From: a virus
Strand: one strand, 5' to 3'
DNA: 43,821 bases
IMG/VR virus record: IMGVR_UViG_3300043434_000476
Location: 1-43,821 of that record
The notes beneath the pieces were generated by a model. It did no database searches and was not told where the DNA came from. It was given only the letters and a program-made list of their open reading frames with translations. This document shows, in pieces, positions 5,819 to 43,821 of this stretch; position 1 is the first letter of the stretch; every line of letters begins with the position of its first letter. The translations under genes were made by a program, and so were the position numbers.

Positions 5819-5833
5819 AATTTACATTGTAAA

Positions 5834-5841
5834 TATTTATA
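5834..5841 (-). promoter_or_regulatory. T4-type late promoter box TATAAATA
   Basis: The plus strand reads TATTTATA, giving an exact TATAAATA on the minus strand 48 nt upstream of the TctC-type gene. With the plus-strand copy at 5811 it makes a back-to-front divergent pair: each box lies on the far side of the other, so the two transcripts would overlap at their 5' ends. Confidence 0.65.
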
Positions 5842-14253: not shown

Positions 14254-14282
14254 ATTATATAATATAAATGATTAATAGTCAA
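14254..14282 (-). promoter_or_regulatory. uvsE promoter TTGACT-17-TATAAT, leaderless
   Basis: TATAAT (14254-14259) lies 5 nt before the uvsE ATG and TTGACT (14277-14282) is exactly 17 bp further upstream, inside the end of the MaoC-like gene. Normal start-site spacing places the first transcribed base at the A of the ATG. Confidence 0.8.
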
Positions 14283-14646: not shown

Positions 14647-14652
14647 TTAACT

Positions 14653-14681
14653 ATTATAAATGAAAAATCATTAATTGTCAA
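14653..14681 (-). promoter_or_regulatory. Perfect sigma70 promoter TTGACA-17-TATAAT, leaderless
   Basis: TATAAT (14653-14658) and TTGACA (14676-14681) with a 17-bp spacer match consensus at all twelve positions. The box ends 6 nt before the MaoC-like ATG. The -35 hexamer overlaps the stop codon of the upstream gene. Confidence 0.88.
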
Positions 14682-15031
14682 GCTATTTTAGTTAATTGTT
14701 CAAGGGTTACAGTGTTTAATAACTGCTGTTCAGACACAGAGTCCATGCTACTTTCGCAGTCAAAATCATCTTCGGGGAATATTTCTTCTAGACCGGCAAG
14801 GATTTGATCTCCTTGCTCTGCGTCTATACTAGCGGCAAGCCTAACATCGTAACAATGCGGATTGCCATCACCTTCGCTGTCGTCTAAATGATAGACCATA
14901 ACAGTATCGTCATTGTCAGGCTCAACATCTGCAATGTCGTCGACTACTAATAGATATGATTTGGCTTCTTCACTGGTAAGAGTTCTGTTCAAGCATAGTC
15001 TAAAGTAATGGTCGAATTCGTCTATGATCAT
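14678..15031 (-). CDS. Acidic hypothetical protein (117 aa)
   Basis: A 117-aa, strongly acidic protein (clusters such as VVDDIADVEPDNDDTV and FPEDDFDCESSMD) with no signal or membrane segment. No family recognised. It is the last gene of the tail/holin operon, 10 nt downstream of the holin. The acidity is typical of DNA mimics and of phage assembly factors, but there is no specific support for either. Confidence 0.6.
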   Translation of the reverse strand: MIIDEFDHYFRLCLNRTLTSEEAKSYLLVVDDIADVEPDNDDTVMVYHLDDSEGDGNPHCYDVRLAASIDAEQGDQILAGLEEIFPEDDFDCESSMDSVSEQQLLNTVTLEQLTKIA

Positions 15032-15041
15032 AATAAGTTAC

Positions 15042-15593
15042 TTACGCTTTGCCTTCTACTTTTTCTTTGGTTCTTCCATAAGCCGCAATACCAAGAACAG
15101 CACCCATAGCGATATGGTATAATCCCGCACCTTGCAGTGTTAATGGTTGCCATTGGCTTGTTACGCTGCCTTTACTTAGAGCTTGCAATAAACTCCATAA
15201 GATTGGAAATACTACAAAGTCCATGGTACATGTAAGCATATAGACCCAGCCCATGACCGGACGCCATTTTTTATTAATCCAGTCCTGTGATTCTTTATCT
15301 AGTTTTACTGTTGATTCGCCACCTGAGTGCATGGCGCCAGCGGCCTGTCCACTGGTGTTGTTTGTCGGTGCTGTGCCAAAACTATTTTGCATTGGTGAAT
15401 TAGATCCATTAAACGAACCATAGCCACCGCCTAGATTCTGCGCTCCAATGCCGTTGGTAATTGGCTGTGAAAATCCGCTTGTTGAACCAAAAGCCGTGGA
15501 GCCTGTGCTAACAGGCGGCGGTCCAGATTTACTCTGTGTGATTTCTGGCAGATTACCCGGATCTACGAAATCGTCTTCATCTAACTTAGGCAT
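15042..15593 (-). CDS. Holin, 3-TM superfamily, with disordered N-terminal extension
   Basis: A 183-aa protein. Residues 1-95 are low complexity (Gly, Ser, Asn, Pro). Residues 105-183 hold the membrane part: KKWRPVMGWVYMLTCTMDFV, VFPILWSLLQAL, then WQPLTLQGAGLYHIAMGAVL followed by GIAAYGRTKEK. The WRP-MGW...PLTL-G-G-H-GA-LG-A-R-EK pattern matches the 3-TM holins of gene-transfer-agent and T4-like cyanophage type. It would open the inner membrane at lysis and let the SleB hydrolase act. AAAGGAG gives a strong ribosome site. The long disordered head is unusual for a holin and may control timing or bind a partner. Confidence 0.8.
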   Translation of the reverse strand: MPKLDEDDFVDPGNLPEITQSKSGPPPVSTGSTAFGSTSGFSQPITNGIGAQNLGGGYGSFNGSNSPMQNSFGTAPTNNTSGQAAGAMHSGGESTVKLDKESQDWINKKWRPVMGWVYMLTCTMDFVVFPILWSLLQALSKGSVTSQWQPLTLQGAGLYHIAMGAVLGIAAYGRTKEKVEGKA

Positions 15594-28962: not shown

Positions 28963-29189
28963 TAACCTATACTCAGGAAATCATCAAAGCCAGAATCTTT
29001 TTTATCTGCTCTCTGCATCTGCCTAGTGTCGAACTGTGCGGCCCTGCATTCTTCAAGCAGAAAATTCATCTGCCCTATAACTTGTTCACTGGCACCAGCT
29101 CGATACGCAACGTTTAATTTTTTTAAAATTTCACGTTCACGCTCCATCAAAGCATTTAAACGTTGTTCAGGTGTTTCTGTTTTAGTCAT
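28962..29189 (-). CDS. Small helical hypothetical protein (75 aa)
   Basis: A 75-aa protein from ATG 29189, which overlaps the A-type carrier stop by ATGA; a longer frame to 29219 would run inside the sufA-like gene. It is a charged helical hairpin: EQRLNALMEREREILKKLNV and QVIGQMNFLLEECRAAQF, ending DDFLSIG. It resembles small proteins that recur in T4-like phages near replication genes. Function unknown. Confidence 0.65.
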   Translation of the reverse strand: MTKTETPEQRLNALMEREREILKKLNVAYRAGASEQVIGQMNFLLEECRAAQFDTRQMQRADKKDSGFDDFLSIG

Positions 29190-29521
29190 TTGAAATTCAC
29201 ACTTTCGCCACAGCCGCACTCATAGGCAACATTGGGATTGATTATCTCCAATCTGCGATTGAGGCCTTCTTGTTTGATAGTGATCACACTGGCTGACATT
29301 TTATCTGCGGCGTTTTTTGTTAAGTATAACACATTAATGTCACTAAGTCTAATATCTGTGCTACCATTTTCTGCGAATGGCTCGTTGGTCAGTGTCCACT
29401 TGTATTCATAACCATTGCAGCCGCCGGGCACAATATCCAAAATTACATTGGATTTGCCGTCACGTAGAATCATACCAATGATATGACTCTTAGCGGCTGT
29501 GGTTATTTCTACTGGTATCAT
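29186..29521 (-). CDS. sufA: A-type Fe-S carrier (SufA/IscA/ErpA family)
   Basis: A 111-aa protein with the three cluster ligands of the family: C35 in VPGGCNGYEY, then C102 and C104 in YECGCGESVNF. In IscA/SufA the pattern is C...CGCGxSF; here CGCGESV. Length is normal for the family (about 107-122 aa). It accepts [4Fe-4S] or [2Fe-2S] from the SufBCD scaffold and passes it to apo-proteins. It sits at the downstream end of the phage SUF genes. The named subfamily cannot be decided from motifs; sufA is chosen for context. Confidence 0.9.
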   Translation of the reverse strand: MIPVEITTAAKSHIIGMILRDGKSNVILDIVPGGCNGYEYKWTLTNEPFAENGSTDIRLSDINVLYLTKNAADKMSASVITIKQEGLNRRLEIINPNVAYECGCGESVNFK

Positions 29522-29853
29522 ACCTTGGCAAGTACTTTTACTAGTTCTTCTTTAGTACTTCGAGCTTTGACTTCCAAGCCGTGTTTTTTAACAAGTTCCA
29601 TTAATTGAGCTTTGGTCATTTTGTTTAATTCAGCACGTTTGTATTTTGCTTTAACAGTAACCGGTGCAGTTTCAATGGCTGCAGGAACAACTGCTTCTGG
29701 AACAACCACAACTTGTTCAGTGACTACCGTAGACGATGTTTCAGAACTGTTTGCATCTGTAACAATTGTCGGCGTTTCAACTTTATAAGGAGCCGCTTCG
29801 GCGACTGGTGTATCACTCTTGCCAGTGATCCAGGCTAGAATTTTCTTGATCAT
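29518..29853 (-). CDS. SAP/HeH-like helix-extended-helix protein with disordered linker
   Basis: A 111-aa protein. Residues 1-12 are basic and aromatic (MIKKILAWITGK), residues 13-68 are a Val/Ala/Pro/Thr-rich linker, and residues 75-111 (ELNKMTKAQLMELVKKHGLE, VKARSTKEELVKVLAKV) form a SAP/Rho-N-like helix-extension-helix DNA- or RNA-binding module. It lies between sufT and the A-type carrier, overlapping both. It may tether the pathway to nucleic acid or be an unrelated passenger. Confidence 0.65.
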   Translation of the reverse strand: MIKKILAWITGKSDTPVAEAAPYKVETPTIVTDANSSETSSTVVTEQVVVVPEAVVPAAIETAPVTVKAKYKRAELNKMTKAQLMELVKKHGLEVKARSTKEELVKVLAKV

Positions 29854-30172
29854 AATCGTACATTCCCATTTCTAATCTTGCCTCTTCGGATACTCTGTCA
29901 GGAGTCCAGGGAGGGTCAAAAACAGTTTCTACTGAAACAGTTCTCGTAGTATTTAACTCTGTTAATACTTTTTCTGCTACCGCTTGCACCTGTGCCGGTA
30001 TCTCTTCGGCACTGGGGCAAAATGCTGAGGTCAGTGTCATCAATATGTTAACACTGCTCTCATCAATACCAATATTATAGATCAGTCCTAGATCATAGAT
30101 ATTCACAGGAATTTCTGGATCGTAGACTGTTTTTAATCCTATGATAATATTTTGTTCAATTTGTTCGTTCAT
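29813..30172 (-). CDS. sufT: SufT/MIP18-family (DUF59) Fe-S assembly protein
   Basis: A 119-aa protein from ATG 30172; upstream codons belong to the zinc-ribbon gene, whose stop it overlaps. LKTVYDPEIPVNIYDLGLIY is the hallmark (DPE-P-N-DLGLIY), ILMTLTSAFCPSAEEIP contains the conserved Cys region, and TVFDPPWTPDRVSEEARLEM is the PPW end motif. SufT and PaaD-like proteins assist maturation of Fe-S proteins. Size is normal. It is coupled to the SAP gene by a 41-nt overlap. Confidence 0.93.
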   Translation of the reverse strand: MNEQIEQNIIIGLKTVYDPEIPVNIYDLGLIYNIGIDESSVNILMTLTSAFCPSAEEIPAQVQAVAEKVLTELNTTRTVSVETVFDPPWTPDRVSEEARLEMGMYDYDQENSSLDHWQE

Positions 30173-30359
30173 ATCTACTTCCTGGTTGTCCCGGTTCGTT
30201 GCTGGCAGTACATGATAATTCATGATTCGTTGCTCGCGGGCAACGCTTGTTCCCACAACTTGGACAGACGATAAATCTACTTGTGGTAACTGGCCAACCT
30301 GATGTTGGATCTTTTATTTCATTTAAACAGTTATAACACCAGCACGTATATTCACTCAT
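30156..30359 (-). CDS. Small zinc-ribbon protein (67 aa)
   Basis: A 67-aa protein with CWCYNC near the N-terminus and CPSCGNKRC in the middle, plus one later Cys. Two CxxC knuckles (CYNC-like and CPSC) suggest a zinc ribbon or a rubredoxin-like iron site. It lies between sufE and sufT with ATGA-type overlaps. Either a metal-binding accessory to Fe-S assembly or one of the many small zinc-finger proteins of T4-like phages. Confidence 0.65.
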   Translation of the reverse strand: MSEYTCWCYNCLNEIKDPTSGWPVTTSRFIVCPSCGNKRCPRATNHELSCTASNEPGQPGSRYERTN

Positions 30360-30730
30360 AATTTTTTAATCCTTGCAATCAAATTTGCAATACCATTTTG
30401 TCTGCCCATACTCAATATGGGTGCCAAGCCCACGACTTCTAACTGTGCTAGATTGAATTCGTCTCGCTGTTCTGTGCCTGCTTGATTCCACCAGTCACAG
30501 ATCATACTGGCAAATCCCTGCACTATCAAACTTTCTCCATAACAGTATACATTTTTATCGATTTTTTCAACCCAGAGATTACTGGTACAGCCAATGACTA
30601 AATTTGCATCAACTTTTTTAACTTCAAATACAGGTCTAGCCACAGAACCATACTCTATGATGTAATCATATTTGTCCATGGAATCATCTAGCTGAAATAA
30701 CTCAGCGAACATTTCTTGAAAGTCTGCCAT
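30356..30730 (-). CDS. sufE: SufE sulfur acceptor
   Basis: A 124-aa protein: MDKYDYIIEYGSVARP, then VIGCTSNLWVEKI with the persulfide-accepting C48 (C51 in E. coli SufE), and FASMICDWWNQ. The GC-S-LW motif and the downstream helix match SufE. It takes persulfide from SufS and passes it to SufBCD, shielding it from oxidants. It overlaps the sufS stop by 29 nt. All key residues are intact. Confidence 0.94.
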   Translation of the reverse strand: MADFQEMFAELFQLDDSMDKYDYIIEYGSVARPVFEVKKVDANLVIGCTSNLWVEKIDKNVYCYGESLIVQGFASMICDWWNQAGTEQRDEFNLAQLEVVGLAPILSMGRQNGIANLIARIKKL

Positions 30731-31895
30731 AAATTTCTCCTAGATAATCAAATGCGATCTCAACTTCGTGTGTATCAGTATAACAGCCCCAGCTTAGTCG
30801 TAACAGACTGCGATTATTTGTAATGGAATCTATCAGTGGTTGCGCACATAACTTACCACTGCGAACCATAACCCCTCTGGCGTCCAACATCATGGTGTAA
30901 TCTTCCACGGCACCTACTGCTGGTAATAAACTTATTAGACCCGTATCCGTGTTACTGGCGGTGTTAAAATACGTTTCAGAAACATTGCTGTTGGCTATTC
31001 TAGCAAGTTTCTTATCGTGCGCAACTATGTCAGATTCATTGGCTATCAACCATTCAATTAAACGCGGTAATGTGGCAATGGCGGATAAGTTTAGAGTGCC
31101 ACTTTCAAAGCGACCCGCATTTGACTGCCACGTTGCCTGACTGATTGTAACAGAGCTGACACTGCCACCACCGGGATGCACGGGTGCATAGTTTAGCCAT
31201 ACGGGATCTATGATCAAAGTGCCCAGTCCCATGGGACCATATACTTTATGCCAACTCCAAGCAACAAAATCAAAGCCATGAAAGTTTACGGCTCTTTTCC
31301 CCACTAACTGGCTGGCATCTATGATAGTATTAGATGCGGTGGCATGTGCGATGTCACGTATTTTATCTAGGTCATTGATCTTACCCAGTATATTACTAAC
31401 TGCTGATACTGCAATAATTCTACAAGATTCTTTGTCTTCCTTGCACCATTGTTCAAGACTGGTTAGATCTAGACAACCTTCGCTATTCAATGGTATGTAT
31501 TTTATATTCCACCACGGGTTGCTTTTACATAACTCCATAAGTGGTAAACTTAGGCTGTGATGTGCATCTATACCAAGATAAATGGTACCGCCGGGCATGG
31601 CCTGTTCTACTAGTTTCACCGCATCGTTTAGACCCTGACTACTGCCACTGTTAAAGATAACAGTTTTTTCTGGTTCTTTGACATTGACATATTTGGCTAT
31701 AAGTTCTTTGGCTCGAAAATATTTTTGATCAACCCAAGTTCCCATACTGTGGCCACTGCGATGCGAATTGCTTCTGTGATCCAGTGAAAAATTTGTTTGG
31801 TCTTCGATGACAGTGTACAGCGCCTGGCTAGTGGCAGCGGTGTCCAGATAAATTATAGCTGGATTACGTGCAAAAAATGGAAAATTATCCCGCAT
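30702..31895 (-). CDS. sufS: SufS cysteine desulfurase
   Basis: A 397-aa PLP enzyme of normal length. IYLDTAATSQ, NSGSSQGLN, H112 in IDAHHS, IDASQ (D193), SWHKVYGPMGLG with the PLP Lys K217, FESGTLN, and VRSGKLCAQPL with the active-site C350. The short loop around C350 and the overall pattern are those of group II desulfurases (SufS), not IscS. It frees sulfur from cysteine as a persulfide. A few family positions are changed (SWHK for SGHK), but all catalytic residues are present. Overlaps sufD by 11 nt and sufE by 29 nt. Confidence 0.96.
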   Translation of the reverse strand: MRDNFPFFARNPAIIYLDTAATSQALYTVIEDQTNFSLDHRSNSHRSGHSMGTWVDQKYFRAKELIAKYVNVKEPEKTVIFNSGSSQGLNDAVKLVEQAMPGGTIYLGIDAHHSLSLPLMELCKSNPWWNIKYIPLNSEGCLDLTSLEQWCKEDKESCRIIAVSAVSNILGKINDLDKIRDIAHATASNTIIDASQLVGKRAVNFHGFDFVAWSWHKVYGPMGLGTLIIDPVWLNYAPVHPGGGSVSSVTISQATWQSNAGRFESGTLNLSAIATLPRLIEWLIANESDIVAHDKKLARIANSNVSETYFNTASNTDTGLISLLPAVGAVEDYTMMLDARGVMVRSGKLCAQPLIDSITNNRSLLRLSWGCYTDTHEVEIAFDYLGEIYGRLSRNVR

Positions 31896-32319
31896 TTATT
31901 AAACTCTGTTTTATTAATTCTTTGGCATCTCTGATTCCTCTAGATGCTAGATAGTATGTATCTTCCTTGTTCATTGCACCCAGTGCATTTCCATGTGTGG
32001 CGACGATGTTACTGTTGCGAATAAACATTTCCGGCCTTGCTTTAATTTTACTGCGGTCAAATGGCCAGCTTCTAAATTGTATGTCAGTTTCTACTCCACT
32101 AACTTCTTTGGCTACGTCTAGCGTACAAACACAATCAACTTCACTGGTGCCTTCTGTATAGATATAAATCTTAACTTTAAATTTACTATCGGCCTGAGGT
32201 TTTAATTTAATATTAGCTGTGCACTTACCCTCAGTTTGAATGAATACAAACTCATATTCAGACTGAGTAGGCACTAGCATAAGGTCTAGGCTTTCTGCAT
32301 CTAGATATACTTTACGCAT
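31885..32319 (-). CDS. sufD: Minimal SufD (C-terminal domain only)
   Basis: A 144-aa protein. FRSWPFDRSKIKARPEMFIR, IVATHGNALGAMNKEDTYYL and SRGIRDAKELIKQSL match the C-terminus of SufD/SufB (KA-P-L-I-V-C-HG-T-G-DE-YL-RG). H109 corresponds to the SufD His implicated in cluster assembly. The N-terminal half retains only a short beta stretch; cellular SufD is about 420 aa. It therefore keeps the heterodimer and SufC-binding end and loses most of the beta-helix. Normal gene order and overlaps argue for function rather than decay. Confidence 0.85.
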   Translation of the reverse strand: MRKVYLDAESLDLMLVPTQSEYEFVFIQTEGKCTANIKLKPQADSKFKVKIYIYTEGTSEVDCVCTLDVAKEVSGVETDIQFRSWPFDRSKIKARPEMFIRNSNIVATHGNALGAMNKEDTYYLASRGIRDAKELIKQSLINAG

Positions 32320-32965
32320 TGCTTAGATCCAATTTGTTATCACTATATTTTGATTGTAGTTCTTTGTCATGCGTTACCAACAATACACTACCACCAGCAA
32401 GACAAGTACTTTCGATTAATTCTACAATCTTTTGGCGACTGCTTTGTTCTAGTCCGCTGTCCGGTTCATCTAACAATAATAGTTTAGTTTTCTTTTTAAA
32501 TAGATCAGCTTGAACTAGTTCATTCTTTTTACGTTCGCCTCCACTGGCACCGAGATTAAACTGACGTTTCTTCCAATCGTTGGGTAACTGCATATGAAGA
32601 AATTTATCGCTGGCTTGGGCAATTAAATCTCCTCTGGTATAAGGCATGTCATGAACTTTATTGATCTCGTTCAGCAAAGTCATCGTATTAACACCATCAA
32701 TAGTTGGCGGTGCCTGATGTGCTAAAAATACTCCATTGAGAGCACGTTCGTGGCATTCTAGTGTGTGCAATTCACTGTTGTCTAATTCTATCGTTCCAGA
32801 ACTTATGATATCAGGGCGACCCATGATAGCATGTAGCAACGTACTTTTACCTGCACCGTTTTGTCCAGTTACTAGCAGACACTTGCCTGATTCTAGATCG
32901 ATGTTTACATTGTTTATTATTTGTTTGTTGCCTATTCTTGCTGATAAGTTCGTTATTTTTAGCAT
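32312..32965 (-). CDS. sufC: SufC ABC-type ATPase
   Basis: A 217-aa ATPase: LVTGQNGAGKSTLLHAIMG (Walker A, 34-42), GVFLAHQAPPTIDGV (Q-loop with the SufC-specific pattern), GASGGERKKNELVQ (signature, normally GFSGGEKKRNE), LLLLDEPDSGLEQ (Walker B and D-loop), LLVTHDKEL (switch His). It is slightly shorter than E. coli SufC (248 aa), mainly at the C-terminus. It powers shape change in the SufBCD scaffold. It sits between sufB and sufD in the usual order. Confidence 0.96.
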   Translation of the reverse strand: MLKITNLSARIGNKQIINNVNIDLESGKCLLVTGQNGAGKSTLLHAIMGRPDIISSGTIELDNSELHTLECHERALNGVFLAHQAPPTIDGVNTMTLLNEINKVHDMPYTRGDLIAQASDKFLHMQLPNDWKKRQFNLGASGGERKKNELVQADLFKKKTKLLLLDEPDSGLEQSSRQKIVELIESTCLAGGSVLLVTHDKELQSKYSDNKLDLSNA

Positions 32966-34377
32966 TATCCAATACTGCCTTCCATGGTTACTTGTAATAA
33001 TTTATTTGCTTCTGCGGCAAATTCTAAAGGTAGCGTATTCAACACACTGCGACAGAAGCCGTTGACAATTGTCGAAGCCGCTTGTTCCGCATCCAATCCT
33101 CTGGTTGCTAGATAATAAAGTTCTTCTTCACTGACTCGACCGGTTGTTGCTTCGTGTTCGATTTGACTACTGTCGTTTCTACAATCTGTATAAGGAACAG
33201 TATTGCTAGTGCTGTCATTGCCTATCATTAAACTATCGCATTGCGTATAGTTGCGACTATTTTTAGCACCAGGGTTCATACGAACAAGGCCTCGATAAGT
33301 CATTGTACTCCGACCCAAGCTAATACCTTTGCTGATAATCTTACTGCGAGTATCAGCACCTATGTGTATCATTTTGGTACCAGTGTCGGCTTGTTGATGA
33401 CCTCGGGTAACGGCCACTGAATAAAATTCTCCAATGGATCCTTGCCCTTGGAGTACGCAACTAGGGTACTTCCAAGTGATAGCTGATCCTGTTTCCACCT
33501 GAGTCCAACTAACTCTACTTTTGATGCCTCGACACAGTGCTCGTTTGGTAACAAAGTTGTAGACTCCTCCACGTCCGTGTTCGTCTCCAGGGTACCAGTT
33601 TTGTACAGTTGAATATTTAATCTCTGCCCTGTCAAGGGCAACAAGTTCGACCACTGCGGCATGTAACTGATTCTCGTCACGTTGGGGTGCTGTGCATCCC
33701 TCCAAGTAAGATACATAACTGTCCTTATCTGCTATTATTAGCGTTCTTTCAAATTGTCCAGAACCTGCGGAGTTGATTCTGAAATATGTACTAAGTTCCA
33801 ATGGGCATCGTTTGCCTTCGGGTATATATACAAAACTGCCATCACTGAATACTGCGGAGTTGATGCAGGCAAACCAGTTATCACCTTGTGGTACTACTGA
33901 TCCTACATATTGTTTAACTAAGTCCGGATGATGCTGTACTGCTTCGTTGAAGCTACAAAAGATAATACCTTCTTCTGCTAGTTTATCTTTGTATGTTGTG
34001 CCCAAGCTAACACTGTCAAATACCGCATCAACAGCTACACCGGCAAGTTTAGCACGTTCATGTAAAGGAATGCCTAACTTCTCAAAGTCATCTAAAATCT
34101 CTTTGGGTACTTCATCTAAGCTGTTGAATTTCTTTTTAGGACGACTGTGATAGTAAATGTTATCATAGTCTGGGCGTGTATACTTTAACTCAGCCCAGTT
34201 GGGCTCGGTCATTGTGCTTAGTTTCTTTAGCGCATTAAGTCTAAACTCTAGCAACCAATCGGGTTCATTGTTTTTAGCACTGATAAGTCTAACGGTGTTT
34301 TCATTCAAGCCACGGCCTGTCAATTCACTTTCGACATCGGTAGTAAACCCTGCTGTGTATTCTTGTTCTAATTGCAT
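32965..34377 (-). CDS. sufB: SufB scaffold protein, full length
   Basis: A 470-aa protein matching SufB along its length. [67 protein letters not shown]-like [60 protein letters not shown] (core Cys), and [20 protein letters not shown] with the conserved Glu. It builds nascent Fe-S clusters with SufC and SufD. Length is near normal (495 aa in E. coli). The start overlaps the upstream 67-aa gene as TAATG. No frameshifts or lost ligands were seen. Confidence 0.97.
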
Positions 34378-34914: not shown

Positions 34915-35152
34915 ATCCCCACTTTAATCTAAAGATCATGGCGTCTTCGTCATTAAACTTAGCTTTAATTACATACTTATATCCGTAGGAATTATAATCT
35001 AAAGTTTGAAAATAAACGGGTTTTTCTACAGCATGATCCATGACCCACTGCCCTACTTCGGTGTTTTGCCAATCTATAATGGGACCGGCGGCGTAGATTT
35101 CAGGATCTTCTACGTCGCCGACTTTAAAACCGTGTACGGTTAATTCTATCAT
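34883..35152 (-). CDS. Hypothetical phage protein (89 aa), LKW motif
   Basis: An 89-aa protein: MIELTVHGFKVGDVEDPEIY, WVMDHAVEKPVYFQTLDYNS, then IKAKFNDEDAMIFRLKWGYD. The last motif matches the end of the 109-aa neighbour (D-x-M-x-F-x-L-[RK]-W). Overlaps the membrane protein gene by ATGA. Function unknown. Confidence 0.62.
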   Translation of the reverse strand: MIELTVHGFKVGDVEDPEIYAAGPIIDWQNTEVGQWVMDHAVEKPVYFQTLDYNSYGYKYVIKAKFNDEDAMIFRLKWGYDTNSVLQFK

Positions 35153-35469
35153 TTAAAAAGAATCAATGCCATCAAACCTGCTTGGATAACAAAACCAAGG
35201 CCAATCGTAACAATATTCAAAATATCTTTGCTGATTGCCGCTTTGACAAAGAATAAAAACAAACCAGCCCATGCAAACAATACTAAGTCCACTGGCGGAG
35301 TTTTTTCAGTTAGTCCTGTTAAGATGGCCAATAGTGTAGGAACAGTGCTCAAGTGAATAAGAATAACTGCTAGCCAACCTAGTGTATCTGCACTGATTGT
35401 AACTAGTTGTTCTTTGAGACTTTTTGCGCTACCTGCTGTAAACTCGTTTAGTTTTTCAATAATATTCAT
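35149..35469 (-). CDS. Three-TM membrane protein beside the cell-wall hydrolase
   Basis: A 106-aa protein from ATG 35469, 11 nt after the hydrolase stop. A longer frame to 35532 would run inside the hydrolase gene. Hydrophobic segments lie at about 30-48, 59-76 and 83-104, with a soluble amphipathic lead (NIIEKLNEFTAGSAKSLKEQ). It could be a second holin or antiholin because of its place next to the hydrolase, but the order and topology do not prove this. Confidence 0.65.
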   Translation of the reverse strand: MNIIEKLNEFTAGSAKSLKEQLVTISADTLGWLAVILIHLSTVPTLLAILTGLTEKTPPVDLVLFAWAGLFLFFVKAAISKDILNIVTIGLGFVIQAGLMALILFK

Positions 35470-35480
35470 TGGTTTCTTTC

Positions 35481-36014
35481 TTACTTGTAAAATACATGAC
35501 CGCCGATGACGGCAACCTTCTCTCGTTTCCAACCAGGATTAATATGAGTTCCATGGAAGTATAAAGCATGTTTTAGACTGGGTAATCTAAAATCTTCTAG
35601 CAAAACTTGTCTTGCTACAATCTCGCTTTCTTTGTAAGCGGCTTTATTTTTTGGTCTGCTTATAGTTGCTTGTTCACAATACCAGCTAAATTGACAAAGA
35701 ACTCGATCATAGACTATGTTCTTTTGATAAACAACTTTGCAGATATCATTGGGAAACTGCCCGCTGGCAACTCTGTTTAATGTCACTTGAGCCACAGCAA
35801 CTTTGCCTTCAAAAGGCTCGTGCCCTGCTTCAAAGTAAATATTTCTTGCCAAGCAATCCAATTGTTTGTCACGAACTTCTGCGGTTACCGGACTCATTAC
35901 CCTTGCTTCTGCGGACCTTAGTTGGTCTAATTTATATCCAATGCCGTGATAGGCAATTAGTCCAATTAGACTAGCTCCTATGACAGACAGAATAATTTTA
36001 ACGATGCGTATCAT
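35481..36014 (-). CDS. SleB/CwlJ-type cell-wall hydrolase with N-terminal anchor
   Basis: A 177-aa protein. Residues 5-24 form a hydrophobic anchor or SAR-type signal (IVKIILSVIGASLIGLIAYH). The hydrolase domain shows CLARNIYFEAGHEPFEGKVA (catalytic E in YFEA), VAQVTLNRVASGQFP and QFSWYC, matching the SleB/CwlJ family that cuts peptidoglycan. It would act as the endolysin. AAAGGAGGG gives a very strong ribosome site, and a 60-nt leader carries an 8-bp hairpin. It is the first gene of the long operon that contains the SUF genes. Confidence 0.88.
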   Translation of the reverse strand: MIRIVKIILSVIGASLIGLIAYHGIGYKLDQLRSAEARVMSPVTAEVRDKQLDCLARNIYFEAGHEPFEGKVAVAQVTLNRVASGQFPNDICKVVYQKNIVYDRVLCQFSWYCEQATISRPKNKAAYKESEIVARQVLLEDFRLPSLKHALYFHGTHINPGWKREKVAVIGGHVFYK

Positions 36015-36418: not shown

Positions 36419-36448
36419 GTACAGGTACTAAATAAAACTATATATATT

Positions 36449-36820
36449 ATGGATATCCTACTCCTTATACTGTTACTGCAAATCAAGCACTGGTATGCTG
36501 ATTTCAAAATACAGACTTATTTACAAACTGTCAAGAAAGGCATTTGGGCAGATCCTATTGGTATGAGTCATACTGGTGATCATATCTGGACAACATTATT
36601 GGCTTTACTAGTGTTTAACTTATTTGTTCCAGTTAGTGCAAGTCTTATATTGGCAGTGGCTTTTTGCGAAGGCATAGCACACTATATCATAGACTATACA
36701 AAAGTCAAATATGGTTGCAAAGACAATACTAAGCCATTGTTCTGGAACCAATTTGGCCTTGATCAACTTGCACATCAAGTATGCTATCTAGCAATGGCAT
36801 ATATTTTACTACACACATAA
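36449..36820 (+). CDS. DUF3307-family membrane protein
   Basis: A 123-aa protein matching the family pattern: LLLQIKHWYADFKIQTYLQT, GDHIWTTLLALLVF, CEGIAHYIIDYTKVKYG and FWNQFGLDQLAHQVCYLAMA. Conserved His and Asp residues (KHWxAD, H-IID, DQ-H) lie at membrane edges, which suggests a metal site. Three to four hydrophobic segments. Function unknown; small DUF3307 proteins are common in phages and bacteria. It opens the plus-strand curli region, with ACTAAATA (36427-36434), a possible late core, 14 nt before the ATG. Confidence 0.8.
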   Translation: MDILLLILLLQIKHWYADFKIQTYLQTVKKGIWADPIGMSHTGDHIWTTLLALLVFNLFVPVSASLILAVAFCEGIAHYIIDYTKVKYGCKDNTKPLFWNQFGLDQLAHQVCYLAMAYILLHT

Positions 36821-36873: not shown

Positions 36874-37347
36874 ATGAAAAAACTAGTATGCTTACTAGCA
36901 TTACTTCCTTGTTTAGCCGGCGCTGAACTAGTTCACCAATTTAAAAATCCAGCTTTTAGTGGTATTGGATATAGTAGTCACGTATTGACAATAGACAGCA
37001 TAGAAAAAAGTCGTCGAGATGCTATTGAAGCTGACAAAAAAGCAGCCATTGCCAAAGCGGAAGCAGATTTACTAAACACACCATTGAATAGATTTATGAG
37101 TTTATTTCAAAGTCAGGTGTATGCACAGCTTGCCACACAATTAAGTAACAATTTATTCACAAACAAATGCGCAGCCGCTGACGGTACAGCGATACCTGGC
37201 TGTGTAAATCCGACAACAGGCAACTTTTTGTTAGATGGTAATACAGTTACTTGGTCCAAGGCCAACGATAAAGTTACACTAACTGTAGTAGATGCCAAAG
37301 GCACGGTTACTACAGTTATAGTACCAATTGCAAGTTTTAGTTTTTAA
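36874..37347 (+). CDS. csgF: CsgF-like curli assembly protein
   Basis: A 157-aa protein: signal peptide to about residue 17 (MKKLVCLLALLPCLAGA), then LVHQFKNPAFSGIGYSS, the CsgF hallmark (xxFxNPxFGG) that inserts into the CsgG pore, followed by a helical neck (KSRRDAIEADKKAAIAKAEA) and a C-terminal beta domain. CsgF caps the CsgG channel and nucleates fibres at the cell surface. It sits directly before csgG. GTTAAATA at 36837-36844 is a possible late core. All signature positions are present, though the mature protein is longer than E. coli CsgF. Confidence 0.88.
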   Translation: MKKLVCLLALLPCLAGAELVHQFKNPAFSGIGYSSHVLTIDSIEKSRRDAIEADKKAAIAKAEADLLNTPLNRFMSLFQSQVYAQLATQLSNNLFTNKCAAADGTAIPGCVNPTTGNFLLDGNTVTWSKANDKVTLTVVDAKGTVTTVIVPIASFSF

Positions 37348-37357
37348 GGAGTAAACA

Positions 37358-38182
37358 ATGAAAGCAATTAAATTATCCTTAATCACATTAGCAATAGTAG
37401 CATTGGCGGGTTGTTCAACTGTTCGTCCTTGGGGCAGTACAAAGATCAAAGAAGAAGCCAAAGTCAGCGAAACTATCAACAAAAGTTTTGCAGCAGTTCC
37501 AAGTCCTGCAGGTCCAGCAGTAACCGTAGCAGTTTATGGCTTCAAAGACTTGACGGGACAGCGTAAGCCTAGTACTACGCTGAGTCTGTTCAGCACAGCA
37601 GTTACACAAGGTGCAGAGGCATACTTGATGAAGAGTTTACAAGAAGTTGGCAATCGTCAATGGTTCACAGTGGTTGAACGTGTTGGCCTTGACAACTTAT
37701 TAAAAGAACGCCAAATGATTAAACAGACACGTGAAATCTACGAAGGCGCAAATGCCAAACCTTTACCTCCACTACAAATGGCAGGTGTTCTTTTAGAAGG
37801 CGGTATTATCGATTATAACAGCAATACACTAACCGGTGGCACTGGTGCTCGTTGGTTAGGTATTGGCACACAAACAGCATATACTCAGGACGTAGTTGTT
37901 ATCAGCTTGCGTTTAGTAAGTGTACAAACTGGCGAAGTTTTAACTACAGTGACTGTAGAAAAGAACTTACTCAGTACTGCCGATGGGGCAACAGCGTTGA
38001 AGTTTTTCAACCAAGCTACGCAGGCATTTGAATTTGATTCGAGCCAAACTTTCAATGAGCCGGGTAACTATGCGCTACGTTCGGCTATTGAAACAGCGGT
38101 TATTGAATTAATTAAAAAGGGCGAACGCCAAGGTCTGTGGAAATTCAAAGAGAATTCTGCTGAACCTAAACAAGGGAGTTAA
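37358..38182 (+). CDS. csgG: CsgG-like outer-membrane curli secretion channel
   Basis: A 274-aa lipoprotein: VALAGC lipobox (Cys 19), VTVAVYGFKDLTGQRKPSTT, LFSTAVTQGAEAYLMKSLQE, WFTVVERVGLDNLLKERQMI, and VVISLRLVSVQTGEVLTTVT. These match CsgG along its length. In the constriction loop the Phe of E. coli (F56) is kept in LFSTAV while the neighbouring Tyr/Asn positions differ. It forms the nonameric pore that exports curli subunits. AAGGAG precedes the ATG, and the stop is 2 nt before the curlin gene. Confidence 0.95.
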   Translation: MKAIKLSLITLAIVALAGCSTVRPWGSTKIKEEAKVSETINKSFAAVPSPAGPAVTVAVYGFKDLTGQRKPSTTLSLFSTAVTQGAEAYLMKSLQEVGNRQWFTVVERVGLDNLLKERQMIKQTREIYEGANAKPLPPLQMAGVLLEGGIIDYNSNTLTGGTGARWLGIGTQTAYTQDVVVISLRLVSVQTGEVLTTVTVEKNLLSTADGATALKFFNQATQAFEFDSSQTFNEPGNYALRSAIETAVIELIKKGERQGLWKFKENSAEPKQGS

Positions 38183-38184
38183 AT

Positions 38185-38973
38185 ATGAAAAAGATTATTC
38201 TAGCACTAGCAATAACTATGGCATTTCCTGTGTTGGCACAGACTGCGGTAACTGCACCAAGTGCTCCGACTATTCCAACAATGACTACAGTTAGTCCTAA
38301 TGCAACCGCCGCATTGGCCACTGCAACAACTAACCGTATCTTCATCGACCAAAGCGGTGACAATCCTGATGTTAATATGACTCAAGACGGTACAGGTAAT
38401 AAAGCTGGTTCGGCACAACGTCCAGTATATCTACGTGGTATCGATCAAACAGTTGTTACACGTCAAATTGGTGTTAACAACGAAATCATGTTAGAAGCAG
38501 TGAATGCTACTACAGGTTCTGGCCAAGGTGTTACTATCACTATCCAACAGATTGGCGATACCAACAAGGTTGATGCTGCCTGTGGTTATGGCAATGCCAG
38601 CGATGGTACTACAGCACTAACAGGTTGTAAGGCCGCTGATCTAAACTGGAAGTTTACTGGCGACAGTAACGACCTACAGTTCCGCGGCACAGGCGATGAT
38701 CTAAAGAGTGCTATTGATGTAACAGGTGACAGTAACGTATTCCGTATTGATGCTATTGGTAACAAGCATACACAAACTATTAAGGTAGTTGGTGATACTA
38801 ACACATTTAACATTAATCAACGTAGTACAGGTGCCGCAGGTTCTAGCATTTGGGTTGACTTAGCTGGTAATAGTAACACACTAACAATGAGCCAAACAGG
38901 TACCATTGACAATGTTATTAATATCAAGAGTGTAAGCAACAGCGGTACATTTAATATTACACAAAAGAACTAA
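38185..38973 (+). CDS. Curlin-type amyloid subunit (CsgA/CsgB-like)
   Basis: A 262-aa secreted protein: signal peptide (cut near VLAQ, residue 19), a Thr/Pro/Ala-rich stretch, then imperfect repeats with the curlin N-x-x-x-x-x-Q strand-turn-strand pattern: NRIFIDQSGDNPDVNMTQDG, VTITIQQIGDTNKV, NTFNINQRSTGA, NTLTMSQTGTIDNVINIKSV, TFNITQKN. Two Cys (about 133 and 147) lie in a central non-repeat insert. It is the probable fibre-forming substrate of the CsgG/CsgF pore encoded upstream. CsgE is not seen. Confidence 0.9.
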   Translation: MKKIILALAITMAFPVLAQTAVTAPSAPTIPTMTTVSPNATAALATATTNRIFIDQSGDNPDVNMTQDGTGNKAGSAQRPVYLRGIDQTVVTRQIGVNNEIMLEAVNATTGSGQGVTITIQQIGDTNKVDAACGYGNASDGTTALTGCKAADLNWKFTGDSNDLQFRGTGDDLKSAIDVTGDSNVFRIDAIGNKHTQTIKVVGDTNTFNINQRSTGAAGSSIWVDLAGNSNTLTMSQTGTIDNVINIKSVSNSGTFNITQKN

Positions 38974-38984
38974 GGGGCTGGGCA

Positions 38985-40154
38985 ATGAGGCTCGCCTCCT
39001 TAATCTTATGCTTATTCGCGACGGCAAGTGCTTGGGCCGACATCGGTAATGTTACCGAAGCTTCAGGTATTGCCGTTATTAAGCGTGGCAAAGATGTTAT
39101 TCAAATTGTCAAGGGCACTGTAATAGAAACCAACGACAAAGTTGAAACTAAAAACGGTCGAGTTAAAATTGTTTTTAAGGATGATACTAATGTCACTGTC
39201 ACAGAATCTAGTAGTTTAATCATCGACGACTTTGTCTACGATCCAAAAAGCGGTGCTGGCAAACTAGGACTTAAAGCAGCCGCAGGTACAGTTCGTTATG
39301 TATCGGGTAGTATTGCCAAAGATCCTAAAAACGTAAAAATAAACACACCCACTGCGGCTATTGCTGTTCGTGGCACAGACTTTGTTATGGCCGTCGGTGA
39401 AACAGGTAGTAGTATGATTATGCTAATGCCTACCTGCGAAATAGAACAAAACATTAACTTAAAAGGTCTTACCTGCGGCAGCGGAGCTATTGATGTAGAA
39501 ACACCCTCAGGTATAGTTAAGTTAAATCGTCCTTATCAAGCTACACTAGTTGAAACATTGAATGGTGTTCCTAGTCCAGCAGTTATTGTTGCTCTTAACG
39601 GCATGGCCATTGGCAACAACTTAATGGTCAATCCTCCCAGAACAACCACTGGTGTCAGTGTTATTGCTGCCGCTCGTGCAGCCGCTGAAAAGACAGGAGA
39701 TGCTAAGAAAGAAGGCAAGAAAGAAGAAAAAGACGACAAAGACGATGCCAAGGATCAAGAGAAACAAGCTGTGGCAAGTAAACAAGAAGGTAATAGTAAT
39801 AGATCACAACGTCAAGGCCGCAGTGCCAACGAAGGTGATGAAGAAACGGCCAACGAAACCAAGGTAGGTGTAGACGCAAACGCCAACAAAGATTCACTAG
39901 TTAATGAAGTTGCAAGTGTGGGAGAAACAGAAAATCCCTATGTTAAAAAACTGTTCAAAGACAAAAGCGAAACCCAGCAAGTAGGTTGGTTGTACGAAAG
40001 TCTAAGTCCTAATAGTAAGAACTATGCCAATGTTGTCATGCCACTTAACACACAGGTGCAAGTTACAGTAACACAGGATATGCAGACTAATAGTTGGAAC
40101 TTTGCTCCAGGTAAACCACAAGGACAGATTGTTATCAATCAGAATTTTAGATGA
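38985..40154 (+). CDS. FecR-domain secreted protein with charged linker
   Basis: A 389-aa protein: signal peptide (cut near AWA, residue 18), then the FecR module GIAVIKRGKDVIQIVKGTVI, TNDKVETKNGRVKIVFKDDT, VTVTESSSLIIDDFVYD, INTPTAAIAVRGTDF. The segment from about 230 to 300 is extremely charged (KKEGKKEEKDDKDDAKDQEK) and probably disordered. A C-terminal domain follows. FecR-domain proteins of this type often stand next to CHASE2 cyclases in bacteria. It may bind nascent fibre or signal across the envelope to the cyclase. Its ATGA overlap ties it to the discoidin-curlin gene. Confidence 0.9.
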   Translation: MRLASLILCLFATASAWADIGNVTEASGIAVIKRGKDVIQIVKGTVIETNDKVETKNGRVKIVFKDDTNVTVTESSSLIIDDFVYDPKSGAGKLGLKAAAGTVRYVSGSIAKDPKNVKINTPTAAIAVRGTDFVMAVGETGSSMIMLMPTCEIEQNINLKGLTCGSGAIDVETPSGIVKLNRPYQATLVETLNGVPSPAVIVALNGMAIGNNLMVNPPRTTTGVSVIAAARAAAEKTGDAKKEGKKEEKDDKDDAKDQEKQAVASKQEGNSNRSQRQGRSANEGDEETANETKVGVDANANKDSLVNEVASVGETENPYVKKLFKDKSETQQVGWLYESLSPNSKNYANVVMPLNTQVQVTVTQDMQTNSWNFAPGKPQGQIVINQNFR

Positions 40155-41983
40155 AAAAAATATTTCTAGTGTTAATGTTGTTATGTTCAAATGCTTTTGG
40201 TGCCATTACTGACGGTAAGTTCGGTATCAATCAAATATTCGATGTACAATATTGGTGGAGTGGTAATACTTTAAATGCCAGCAATTTTATTGCACCTTAT
40301 AATAAAAACTTTCAAACTGTTACGGTAACTACAGGACAATACTTTCAATTCTTTGCATCAACAACTAATCCCGGAAAGTACGGTTTAAAATTAATGAACA
40401 GCAATGGCACACAACATAGTATTGTTCACGACTACGGGGATATTACAGCATTAGGAAGTGGTGCGATCTTTTATATCGGGAGCGGATTCTTCGGTAACGT
40501 AATTACAACTTCACAAGGATATAGCTATGGCGCCAGTGCTACATTTACAAATATGGATACTAGCGTAACCAGTAGTGATCTAAACAGTTATACATTTGCT
40601 AGTTCGACCCCGTTAGCATCAGGGCAAACCGCTGCACCTGCAACTCCTACTGTAGATTGGAAAACAATTAAAACTAACAGTACTCCTGTTGTTATTAGCA
40701 ACATTTATCCTACTACTAATAATAGTCCCTATGGGGAAGGTGCAAGCCAAGCATTTGATAACAATACAGGTACAAAATATTTAAACTTTGATAAAAAGAA
40801 TGCCGGTGTTACGGTTAAACTAAGTCAGGGTCGCGTAGTGCAAAAATTTACTTTAACTACAGCAAACGACTATAGTGGTCGTGATCCAACTAGCTATAAA
40901 TTATATGGTAGTAATGACGGCGTCAATTGGACACTGATAAAACAAGATTCGTTGAGTCTCAGCGAAACAAGATTTTGGACCAGTCCAGAAATCTCAGTAG
41001 CTAACACCACTGCTTATGTCTACTATTACATTTTATTTCCAACTACAAAAGCAGGCGATGGCTGCGGATTAAACTGTGACAGTATGCAGATTGCAGAAGT
41101 TACATATTATTATGATTTAAATGATGGTGTAACAAGTACTGATCAGGCTACTACGTCGACGCCAGCAAATCCAGGATCTGCAGGTTCAGTGTGCAGTGAT
41201 TGCTTCTCCAGTAACATTACCAGTGCACAACAAGTATTATTAGATGCCGCACGTACAAGACGCAATGCGATTTCCGTGGGCAATAGAATTGATTTAAACG
41301 TAGACGGTCCTACAACTAATGTAACTATAGAACAAGTGGGCAGTTATAATAGAATACAGGGACTTGGCGGCGCAGGAACCAATGCACACATAGGTGGATT
41401 TACTAACACCGTTAGTATTAAACAGGGCGAAACACTTAGTGGACGTAACTTAATAGAGTTATATATACAGGGTAACGGAAACAATTTAACACTAAGCCAA
41501 GCTAGGAATACTGCAACAGGATTAGAAGATGGACAGGAAAGCGGCGGCCATATAGCTAGAATTTCTATAACAGGTAATAGCGCAACATATACTATTAGAC
41601 AGGGTAATGATGGAGGCTCTATCAGTGGTCATTTCTTAAATTATACAATGTCAGGCGGTGGCGGAACACACTCTGTTAAGCAAAGTAACAACGGTGAAAA
41701 ACTGGCATTTATCAATATTTCAGGCAACTACAATAATGAAACTATACAACAAACTGGCACAGGAAATCACTTCTTGGATTTAACAATGACTGGTAACAAT
41801 AATAGTGCAAACATTACACAAAAGGATGCAGGCAGTCACAATGCAACAATTAGCTTGACTAATGTCGGCGGCGCAAGTTCTGCTACATTAGTTCAACAAG
41901 GCAGCACGTCCCAAGTTTATAGTATTACACAACAATGTGCAAACCTAGCAGGTTGTTCCGTGTCAGTTACACAAGGACAATAA
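40151..41983 (+). CDS. Discoidin-like (F5/8 type C) plus curlin-repeat fusion protein
   Basis: A 610-aa secreted protein. After the signal peptide (cut near AFGA) comes a 160-aa beta domain. A discoidin-type carbohydrate-binding domain follows at about 185-325 (GEGASQAFDNNTGTKYLNF, YKLYGSNDGVNWTLIKQDSL), then a Ser/Thr/Gly linker with CSDC. At about 375-610 lie degenerate curlin repeats: VTIEQVGSYNRI, VSIKQGETLSGRNLI, LTLSQARN, YTIRQGNDGG, ETIQQTGTGNHFL, ANITQKDAGSHNA. It could act as the minor, tip or anchor subunit that lets an amyloid fibre grip a glycan. Fusion of these two parts is unusual. Confidence 0.85.
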   Translation: MKKIFLVLMLLCSNAFGAITDGKFGINQIFDVQYWWSGNTLNASNFIAPYNKNFQTVTVTTGQYFQFFASTTNPGKYGLKLMNSNGTQHSIVHDYGDITALGSGAIFYIGSGFFGNVITTSQGYSYGASATFTNMDTSVTSSDLNSYTFASSTPLASGQTAAPATPTVDWKTIKTNSTPVVISNIYPTTNNSPYGEGASQAFDNNTGTKYLNFDKKNAGVTVKLSQGRVVQKFTLTTANDYSGRDPTSYKLYGSNDGVNWTLIKQDSLSLSETRFWTSPEISVANTTAYVYYYILFPTTKAGDGCGLNCDSMQIAEVTYYYDLNDGVTSTDQATTSTPANPGSAGSVCSDCFSSNITSAQQVLLDAARTRRNAISVGNRIDLNVDGPTTNVTIEQVGSYNRIQGLGGAGTNAHIGGFTNTVSIKQGETLSGRNLIELYIQGNGNNLTLSQARNTATGLEDGQESGGHIARISITGNSATYTIRQGNDGGSISGHFLNYTMSGGGGTHSVKQSNNGEKLAFINISGNYNNETIQQTGTGNHFLDLTMTGNNNSANITQKDAGSHNATISLTNVGGASSATLVQQGSTSQVYSITQQCANLAGCSVSVTQGQ

Positions 41984-41989
41984 TCGATC

Positions 41990-41997
41990 TATAAATA
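41990..41997 (+). promoter_or_regulatory. Late promoter box TATAAATA before the cyclase
   Basis: Exact TATAAATA on the plus strand, ending 5 nt before the cyclase ATG at 42003. No Shine-Dalgarno is present in that gap, so a transcript from here would be leaderless; the gene may also be read through from the curli operon. Confidence 0.55.
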
Positions 41998-42002
41998 GTG
42001 GT

Positions 42003-43821
42003 ATGAAAAAACTACTACTTAATCCATGGCTAGCACTAGTCACTCTAGCACTAATAATATCAGTTCGCATTATAGATCCTGCATTTGTTGAATCTGTTAG
42101 ACTGCGATACTTTGATCAGCTTATAACAAGTCAGGAAAAAGTTGATATTCCAGTACACACAGTCAATATCGACGAAGCAACATTGGACAAATATGGTCAA
42201 TGGCCATTTCCCAGAGATATGTATGCAGATATAATTGCAGACTTGTATCGCAGAGGCGCAGGCTTGGTTGTGTTTAACGTACTAATGCCCGAAGCAGATA
42301 GATTCAAACAGGACGCTAAACTAGCACAAATTTTAAAACAATATCCAGTTGTATTACCAGCACTGGGTCATAGTTCAGATAAGAACACGCCTCGTAATTC
42401 AGGTGTTAGTATAGTCGGCACTGACCCTGCTGGTATAGTTGTTGAATATCCTGGTATATTAAGCAGTGTAGGTTTAATTAATAACAATGCCGCAGGTGTA
42501 GGTATCGTAAATACATTTCCTGAAATCGACGGTGTTGTTCGTCGCACACCTTTAGTAATATACAGCAATGAAAAACTGCATCCCGGTCTTGCACTGGAAA
42601 CACTGAGAGTGGCCGCCGGCGATCCTAGTTTTCAAATTAAGATCGGGGAACAGGGGGTAGAGGCGCTTAGAGTTCCAAAGTTTGGCCGCATCAACACAGA
42701 TGACCTTGGCCGCATATGGATTGATTGGCGCAATCAATCTAAAGAACACAGTCTAGTAAAATTGCCAGATAGTTTTAACGGAGAAATAGTAGTTGTGGGT
42801 CTAAGTGCCGCAGGTCTTGCTAATCCCATAGCTACAGCACAGGGAGAAGTTTGGCCGCATTATTTACAAAGTGCAGTATTAGGAACCATGTTGACCAAGT
42901 CAACGATACAACGTCCTGGTTATGCTGATCAGCTAGAGATATTAAGTTTATTGGTACTAGGAGTTATACTAATATTTTTAATGAAGTGGACATATGTGGG
43001 TATTGCTACTACGGTTGTCATTATTGCTGGTTCTATATTTGGTAGTATGCTGGCATATAGTAACTTCTTATTCCTCTTTGATAGTACCGCACTGGCTGTT
43101 GGACTGCTATTGGTATCTTTACATGCATATGTGGCAAAGTTTGTCAGCGAATACCTACAAAAGTCTGCAATTAAAAAACAGTTTGGTAGCTATGTCAATC
43201 CCGTTATTGTAGAACGTTTGCAAAAAGATCCCAGCTTTATTAAACTAGGTGGTGAGAAAAAAGACCTAACAATTATCATGAGTGACATGCGAAACTTCAC
43301 TGGCTTAGGCGAAACATATGGTGATGACGTTGTGGCATTTACTAACACTATGAATCGTTATATGACTGCTATTGCAGAACCTATTCTAAGAAACAATGGT
43401 TGTTTAATTAAGTTTATCGGTGATGCAAGTTTACACGTTCACGGCGCTCCTATTCAAGAGGAACAAGATCCCGATCATGCGCACGCCGCAGTACGTACTG
43501 GACTTGAAATGATTCATGCTGTTGAGTTGTTTAATATTGAACTAGAAAAAGAAGGTAAGCCAAGAGTAGGTATGGGTCTGGGAATCAATACTGGTCCTAC
43601 ATTGATCGGTAACATTGGCAGTAAAGACCGATTTGGCTATGACGTATTAGGTGATTCAGTTAGCTTAACTGCACGTTTAGAAGGTCAAACTAAGAACTAT
43701 GGACAATTAATCATTATCAGCGAGTTTACAGAGAAGCGTGTTAACGAGGCCTATTTTACTATTCCCTTGGACTGTATTGCAGTTAAAGGTAAGAGCATTG
43801 GTGTTAATATTTTCACAGTGT
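42003..43821 (+). CDS. CHASE2-domain class III adenylate/guanylate cyclase, 3'-truncated by window edge
   Basis: An open frame of 606 codons that runs off the right edge. An N-terminal TM (about 8-24) precedes a periplasmic CHASE2 sensor (LRYFDQLI, VNIDEATLDKYGQWPFPRDM, VGLINNNAAGVG, IVVVGLSAAGL). Two or three TMs follow at about 316-378, and then the cyclase domain. The metal Asp residues are D428 (IIMSDMRNFTGLGE) and D474 (KFIGDASLHVHGAP). GINTGPTLIGNIGS and YDVLGDSVSLTARLEG complete the catalytic core, so the enzyme looks active. It would turn an envelope signal into cAMP or cGMP in the host cytoplasm. Confidence 0.93.
   Translation, partial: MKKLLLNPWLALVTLALIISVRIIDPAFVESVRLRYFDQLITSQEKVDIPVHTVNIDEATLDKYGQWPFPRDMYADIIADLYRRGAGLVVFNVLMPEADRFKQDAKLAQILKQYPVVLPALGHSSDKNTPRNSGVSIVGTDPAGIVVEYPGILSSVGLINNNAAGVGIVNTFPEIDGVVRRTPLVIYSNEKLHPGLALETLRVAAGDPSFQIKIGEQGVEALRVPKFGRINTDDLGRIWIDWRNQSKEHSLVKLPDSFNGEIVVVGLSAAGLANPIATAQGEVWPHYLQSAVLGTMLTKSTIQRPGYADQLEILSLLVLGVILIFLMKWTYVGIATTVVIIAGSIFGSMLAYSNFLFLFDSTALAVGLLLVSLHAYVAKFVSEYLQKSAIKKQFGSYVNPVIVERLQKDPSFIKLGGEKKDLTIIMSDMRNFTGLGETYGDDVVAFTNTMNRYMTAIAEPILRNNGCLIKFIGDASLHVHGAPIQEEQDPDHAHAAVRTGLEMIHAVELFNIELEKEGKPRVGMGLGINTGPTLIGNIGSKDRFGYDVLGDSVSLTARLEGQTKNYGQLIIISEFTEKRVNEAYFTIPLDCIAVKGKSIGVNIFTV

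Follow-up and report, generated by a model that had tools for sequence, protein, structure and literature searches.

A phage curli locus with a FecR-domain protein, a CHASE2 cyclase and a putative exchangeable lectin-like head on its second curlin

Gene content, conservation and phage setting

The complete IMG/VR virus record IMGVR_UViG_3300043434_000476, whose whole stretch of 43,821 bases is hereafter called the window, derives from an uncultured aquatic-type virus infecting bacteria. It carries a curli locus of six plus-strand open reading frames (ORFs), csgF, csgG, a curlin (Cur1), a FecR-domain protein, a discoidin-curlin fusion (Cur2) and a CHASE2-cyclase, which follow one another in this order with short gaps or overlaps. 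This row had been proposed from the DNA letters alone (the original prediction), and ORF calls and Pfam searches recovered all six genes on the plus strand, tightly spaced. The features of the locus are as follows:

36429..36434, plus strand: TAAATA late-type box (CTAAATA, 36428-36434) ahead of the unit's first gene, read from the sequence
36449..36820, plus strand: DUF3307/phage membrane protein (PF11750, E = 5.3e-8; phrog_2470, 1.4e-17)
36874..37347, plus strand: CsgF homologue with signal peptide, mature N-terminus ELVHQFKNPAFSG (PF10614, E = 1.6e-11)
37358..38182, plus strand: homologue of the outer-membrane lipoprotein pore CsgG, lipobox LAGC (PF03783, E = 1.6e-51; PDB CsgG 3x2r, E = 1.3e-44)
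38185..38973, plus strand: Cur1, putative curlin-repeat fibre subunit with signal peptide, in which no head domain was found (Curlin_rpt, E = 0.0021)
38985..40154, plus strand: secreted FecR-domain protein, domain at residues 51-141 (PF04773, E = 5.3e-10)
40151..41983, plus strand: Cur2, putative curlin fibre protein with N-terminal lectin-like head (Pfam, relatives, AlphaFold2, Foldseek)
40658..41116, plus strand: Cur2 head, F5/8 type C (discoidin, CBM32-like), residues 170-322 (PF00754, 1.9e-8)
41285..41980, plus strand: Cur2 curlin-type strand ladder, residues 379-610 (AlphaFold2 strands about every 12 residues; conserved Gln/Asn/Gly columns)
41990..41997, plus strand: late-type box TATAAATA, five bases before the cyclase ATG, read from the sequence
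42003..43820, plus strand: CHASE2-class III nucleotide cyclase, 606 residues up to the contig end (PF05226, 9e-38; PF00211, 4.2e-17; phrog_35576, 1.3e-205)
43284..43676, plus strand: predicted cyclase active site, with metal residues D428 and D474, adenine residues K470 and D547, S554 at the transition-state position, and R558 (motif alignment; PDB 3r5g, 2w01, 6fht)

Scanning IMG/VR with the CsgG of the window yielded 184 relatives, of which 80 were kept. The neighbour profiles come from these 80 loci, which had first been searched by phmmer with the proteins of the window, and each count takes in only loci whose contig reaches far enough. CsgF is present in 77/77 of the relatives, Cur1 in 72/72, FecR in 69/69, Cur2 in 53/59 and the cyclase in 45/49. 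The original prediction had named random gene content around csgG as what would speak against it; the content is instead strongly conserved, and these counts rule out a random neighbourhood. A DUF3307 gene lies ahead of csgF in most close relatives and is likely the first gene of the transcription unit. The PHROGs database holds CsgF (35372), CsgG (20175), FecR (37870) and the cyclase (35576) as phage families of unassigned function; for CsgF, phmmer returned no PDB match.

The same genes are carried by the cultured phages HTVC008M and Melnitz (tblastn), whose records give the order csgF-csgG-curlin-FecR-curlin-cyclase, kept in phages from two host classes; the FecR protein and second curlin of HTVC008M, labelled hypothetical in the record, were identified through similarity. 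Phage csgF and csgG were reported earlier, with 'sibling capture' proposed (Zaragoza-Solas 2020, PMC7029224), and a cluster with FecR and adenylate cyclase was described in myo- and podoviruses, with transfer between families and with FecR and cyclase genes absent from canonical bacterial curli operons (Wittmers 2022, PMC9599517). The combination with FecR and a cyclase, which had been thought new, is therefore real and conserved but already published. The novelty lies in the exchangeable lectin-like head, an altered cyclase, the setting in large phages and a late promoter pattern of two units. Compared with the type VIII secretion system (T8SS) module of pelagiphages and methylophages (HTVC008M, Melnitz, HTVC023P-type podoviruses), the window has the same gene order and likewise no recognised CsgE, whereas its proteins share no more than 35-46% identity with those of HTVC008M and Melnitz, a DUF3307 protein stands in front instead of the histidine kinase of the podovirus module, and the second curlin bears an F5/8C head. 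Its clamp loader, in contrast to the cultured-phage module, is nearest to that of PA5oct-like jumbo myoviruses (54%), followed by Atu_ph07-like ones (44%).

Both a chimeric assembly and bacterial DNA can be ruled out as the source of the locus, since relative L033, a 142 kb contig from another sample, matches the phage genes of the window from position 26000, running from PhoH and the clamp loader through the endolysin into the curli module, and module-bearing contigs of 250, 327, 361 and 383 kb carry a T4-type terminase and a gp23 capsid gene. Other genes of the window include tail-fibre, virion structural and clamp-loader genes and a piece of a DNA polymerase. A 1.5 kb record titled Salmonella phage with csgG (OR851715.1) was set aside as it may be host DNA.

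Late-type boxes had also been pointed out near the locus. In the window alone their number is that expected by chance (4 exact TATAAATA against 3.95 expected), but across relatives they are placed before the operon and before the cyclase. Of 45 distinct upstreams of the operon's first gene (DUF3307), 34 have TAAATA within the last 20 nt, where 1.6 would be expected; for the cyclase the figure is 19 of 46, against 0.6 expected, while csgG, Cur1, FecR and Cur2 have none in 251 upstreams; counts are over distinct upstreams, with kin among the relatives included as they stand. Exact TATAAATA occurs in 20 relatives, and TATAAAT is the T4-like late promoter sequence used by Buchholz 2022 (PMC9004378). 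The restriction of boxes to the first gene and the cyclase suggests two transcription units; lying only a few bases ahead of the ATG, the boxes would allow for hardly any leader. Two further TATAAATA boxes lie on opposite strands at 5811-5841, between the divergent genes 4826-5785 (minus) and 5862-6593 (plus).

A second curlin with a lectin-like head

Within the window the curlin assignment is weak, the match of Cur1 falling below the Pfam cut-off and the C-terminal part of Cur2 being seen as curlin only through its relatives and phage profiles. It is firmed up by the matches of these profiles to bacterial curlins beside csgG (E down to 1.5e-30 and 3e-36) and by relatives of Cur2 that exceed the Curlin_rpt cut-off in Pfam (to 7.6e-15). 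The short strands about every 12 residues in the Cur2 model are as expected of a curlin solenoid; the predicted local distance difference test (pLDDT) score of this block is 61-88, mostly above 70, and that of the whole model, 63.6 on average, is modest. Against viral structures, Foldseek matched the Cur2 model to phage proteins annotated 'Curlin associated' and 'PA14 domain-containing'.

The head is closest by sequence to the carbohydrate-binding part of a GH92 mannosidase (PDB 7nsn, 9.5e-23), and its AlphaFold model matches galactose-binding CBM32 domains in Foldseek, so that, together with its Pfam match, it belongs to the CBM32/F5/8 type C jelly-roll family. What occupies this slot differs between relatives, being F5/8C in the window, L004 and L048 and PA14/GLEYA in L053 and L070; gp018 of HTVC008M combines a PA14 head with curlin repeats, and the heads of other relatives have no Pfam name. 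The Cur2 slot is the fastest-changing part of the locus: at 91-97% CsgG identity, heads are 29-89% and stalks 18-76% identical. Three relatives (L014, L022 and L023) are about 30% identical to the window in the head at a CsgG identity of 91-95%, while L048 is 79% identical in the head, 27% in the stalk and 67% in CsgG. Head and stalk thus vary independently of CsgG and seem to be exchanged separately. From alignments and models, the second curlin is modular, with a C-terminal curlin solenoid and an exchangeable N-terminal lectin-like head, and the discoidin-curlin fusion of the original prediction is one case of such a protein.

In fold and sequence the heads resemble the CBM32/F5/8C and PA14/GLEYA adhesin domains of flocculins and glycoside hydrolase modules, from which Cur2 differs by fusion to a curlin solenoid in a phage operon. 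No head domain was found on any of 10 bacterial curlins beside csgG, in contrast to Cur2. The text of PMC9599517 makes no mention of PA14, discoidin or lectin, and a literature search by title and abstract returned nothing on curlins fused to PA14, discoidin or lectin domains, either in phages or as bacterial fusions.

The FecR-CHASE2 pair, the cyclase and neighbouring genes

In the alignment, the FecR-domain protein consists of a signal peptide, the FecR domain, a charged linker and a conserved C-terminal end, GQIVINQNFR. Its AlphaFold model is poor (mean pLDDT 45, with low confidence beyond residue 106). The conservation after the linker (QQxGW..SLS...VTQD...GQIVINQxxR, within 38985-40154) may perhaps mark a second domain contacting curlin or CsgG. 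Anti-sigma proteins of FecI-FecR-FecA systems have a cytoplasmic N-terminus and one membrane helix, whereas the protein of the window has a signal peptide, and no FecI or FecA partner (sigma factor, TonB receptor) was found among the neighbouring genes tested. A role as iron regulator is accordingly not supported, and we speak of a FecR-domain protein rather than a FecR regulator because it is secreted and without the anti-sigma architecture.

The curli genes and the FecR-CHASE2 genes have separate bacterial counterparts. Searching bacterial genome contigs with the single CsgG sequence gave one Polaromonas locus only. Neither FecR nor a CHASE2-cyclase occurred in 20 bacterial csgG loci (8 kb on each side where the contig allowed), a small sample leaning on the best csgG matches, which speaks against an ordinary bacterial operon of curli with FecR and cyclase. 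The phage module shares the CsgG pore, CsgF and curlin-repeat subunits with the bacterial curli operon (csgBAC-csgDEFG and alphaproteobacterial versions), but differs from it in that no CsgE was found, by carrying the FecR and CHASE2-cyclase genes absent from all 20 of these loci, and by the head of Cur2. Conversely, 398 genomes from the phylum to which the Polaromonas genome belongs were searched. Among the matches listed, and counting only genomes that have a FecR match, 31 of 70 CHASE2 genes have FecR no more than 4 kb away, against about 0.24 expected by random placement; this expectation is rough, and some of the genes counted may not be cyclases as the query was the CHASE2 part. In these pairs (L086 and L171 are examples) a FecR-domain gene stands beside a CHASE2 receptor gene as in the phage, but does not adjoin curli. 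FecR and CHASE2 are hence a pre-existing bacterial pair found apart from curli, and the phage module joins two bacterial units.

The cyclase gene runs off the contig and lacks its C-terminus, complete relatives being mostly 680-700 residues long, about 80 more. D428, D474, K470, D547 and R558 are kept, and the transition-state Asn is replaced by S554, an alteration of the active site, read from the alignment, that the original prediction had not noticed. The roles of these residues are presumably those generally known for class III cyclases, and as the metal and adenine residues are kept, ATP is the predicted substrate. Serine occupies this position in all window-type relatives and in Melnitz, setting the window apart from the cultured-phage module in general, and Asn in other phage relatives, while bacterial cyclases have Asn in 42 of 44 cases and Thr in two. 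L221 and L227 have, beside bacterial FecR matches, cyclase genes with Thr (YTCIGDSVTLAARL) that resemble the phage Ser type (YDVLGDSVSLTARL), and could possibly represent its source lineage. Among relatives, the identity of the Ser-type catalytic domain does not fall below 90%, whereas CHASE2 (mostly 65-78%) and CsgG (down to 72%) drift, a pattern that looks like purifying selection and not decay. Relative L017, at 92% CsgG identity, has a cyclase of the Asn type. PADLOC gave a weak PycC match (2.4e-12), as for any class III cyclase, and none for the FecR, Cur2 and DUF3307 neighbours; given this and the fusion to CHASE2, the protein was not assigned to Pycsar PycC.

Close relatives (L005-L057) have 0.3-6 kb of additional variable genes between Cur2 and the cyclase, of which the window has none; in L041 these include a calcineurin-like phosphoesterase (14277-15056). 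Small membrane proteins (phrog_18771, MD..ELVNKYGFPI..GGMGYFIY), one or two per locus, adjoin the cyclase in L005 (16690-17491, minus strand) and in many relatives, and could be holins. Elsewhere in the window, the following minus-strand genes were observed:

4826-5785: TctC/Bug tripartite tricarboxylate transporter receptor with signal peptide (PF03401, 2.2e-29), a weak hint of a betaproteobacterial host
29186-34377: SUF iron-sulphur assembly set
29186: SufA-like
29813: DUF59/SufT-like
30702: SufS-like cysteine desulphurase
31885: short SufD-like piece
32312: SufC-like ABC ATPase (by eye)
32965: SufB
35149-36014: cell-wall hydrolase (PF07486, 1.2e-23) with a small membrane protein after it, possibly a pair for lysis, directed away from the curli operon

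Possible roles of the locus

With a probability of about one half, we read the locus as a phage-encoded curli export-and-display module that would place lectin-tipped curli on the infected cell late in infection and tie this to cAMP. The DUF3307-csgF-csgG-cur1-fecR-cur2 unit would be transcribed late, CsgG and CsgF would form an outer-membrane pore, Cur1 would build a curli fibre on the infected cell, and Cur2 would join it as a lectin-headed subunit. Its head (CBM32/discoidin here, PA14/GLEYA or others elsewhere) would bind a glycan on a neighbouring cell, on a particle or on the cell's own surface. The FecR protein and the CHASE2-cyclase, the latter with a late box of its own, would be a bacterial pair of periplasm-facing sensors recruited to couple the module to cAMP. 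The most likely benefit is that infected cells adhere to, or cluster with, new hosts or particles, and the second most likely is a surface cover against other phages; surface masking and lysis timing more generally come after adhesion. More tentatively, the fibre may be an amyloid whose lectin tips, like those of tail fibres, are exchanged through recombination; the infected cell rather than the virion would then bear a phage-chosen late adhesin, under a FecR-CHASE2 cyclase pair with an altered active site.

The original prediction is partly borne out. As judged from the genes, the locus could export or build surface amyloid with a conserved FecR-cyclase partner. It had been called self-contained, which is only partly right, as no CsgE gate was found and both Sec and lipoprotein export have to come from the host. 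Sensing of the envelope state through a second messenger is plausible, and FecR-CHASE2 is a real bacterial pair. Several observations weigh against the reading proposed here. CsgE (PF10627) was found in 0/13 records, which may be partial, with a positive E. coli control; Pfam recognises 0-3 weak repeats in phage curlins but 5-17 in most of the bacterial curlins examined, and with such degenerate repeats amyloid formation is uncertain; and cultures infected with Melnitz showed no clumping (Buchholz 2022, PMC9004378). These three count against a classical curli phenotype, and the replaced transition-state Asn counts against the cyclase step.

Some of the same observations would suit a pore. Buchholz 2022 (PMC9004378) proposed for Melnitz that CsgGF works as an outer-membrane channel without a gate, much like a pinholin, which would help to collapse the envelope and serve lysis timing and progeny release, the curlins being secondary. 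The missing CsgE gate, the late-type boxes, the Melnitz cultures free of clumps, and the hydrolase (35481-36014) and small membrane protein just upstream on the other strand in both the window and L033 are consistent with it. It leaves unexplained, however, a secreted curlin in every relative counted, the exchangeable heads and FecR, and whereas Melnitz was said to be without fibre genes, its record annotates two curlin-repeat proteins; we consider it unlikely. An uptake pore, in which CsgG admits larger nutrients, iron chelates or cofactors (Zaragoza-Solas 2020; Wittmers 2022), would also profit from an absent gate, and this phage has SUF genes as well as a binding protein of the tricarboxylate type. 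Yet it needs neither curlins nor heads, the FecR protein is secreted, and the neighbouring genes that were tested include neither a sigma factor nor a TonB transporter, making this idea highly improbable. The lectin head on Cur2 argues against pore-only ideas of either kind.

Fibres and lectin heads might otherwise coat the infected cell and fend off other phages or protist grazers, and a surface-exposed, fast-changing head fits such masking, as does the superinfection protection suggested by Wittmers 2022 (PMC9599517). Late expression, however, would fall after most superinfection risk, and head exchange suits target binding at least equally well, so that masking as the main role seems about as doubtful as the lysis pore. 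A slightly less probable alternative is that the cyclase mainly manipulates host signalling, through cAMP-CRP or by interfering with Pycsar-type defence, and merely rides with the curli genes. Its own late-type box, the high conservation of a catalytic domain that exists in two exchanged types and the weak PycC similarity accord with this, but its linkage to FecR in phages and bacteria and its persistence with curli across phage families point the other way.

The module is not confined to pelagiphages but is also found in large T4-type phages, and FecR-CHASE2 is a widespread bacterial gene pair. Curli genes occur in aquatic phages whose cultured hosts have none, and a lectin head on the second fibre protein makes one answer to why this is so directly testable, namely by what the heads bind.

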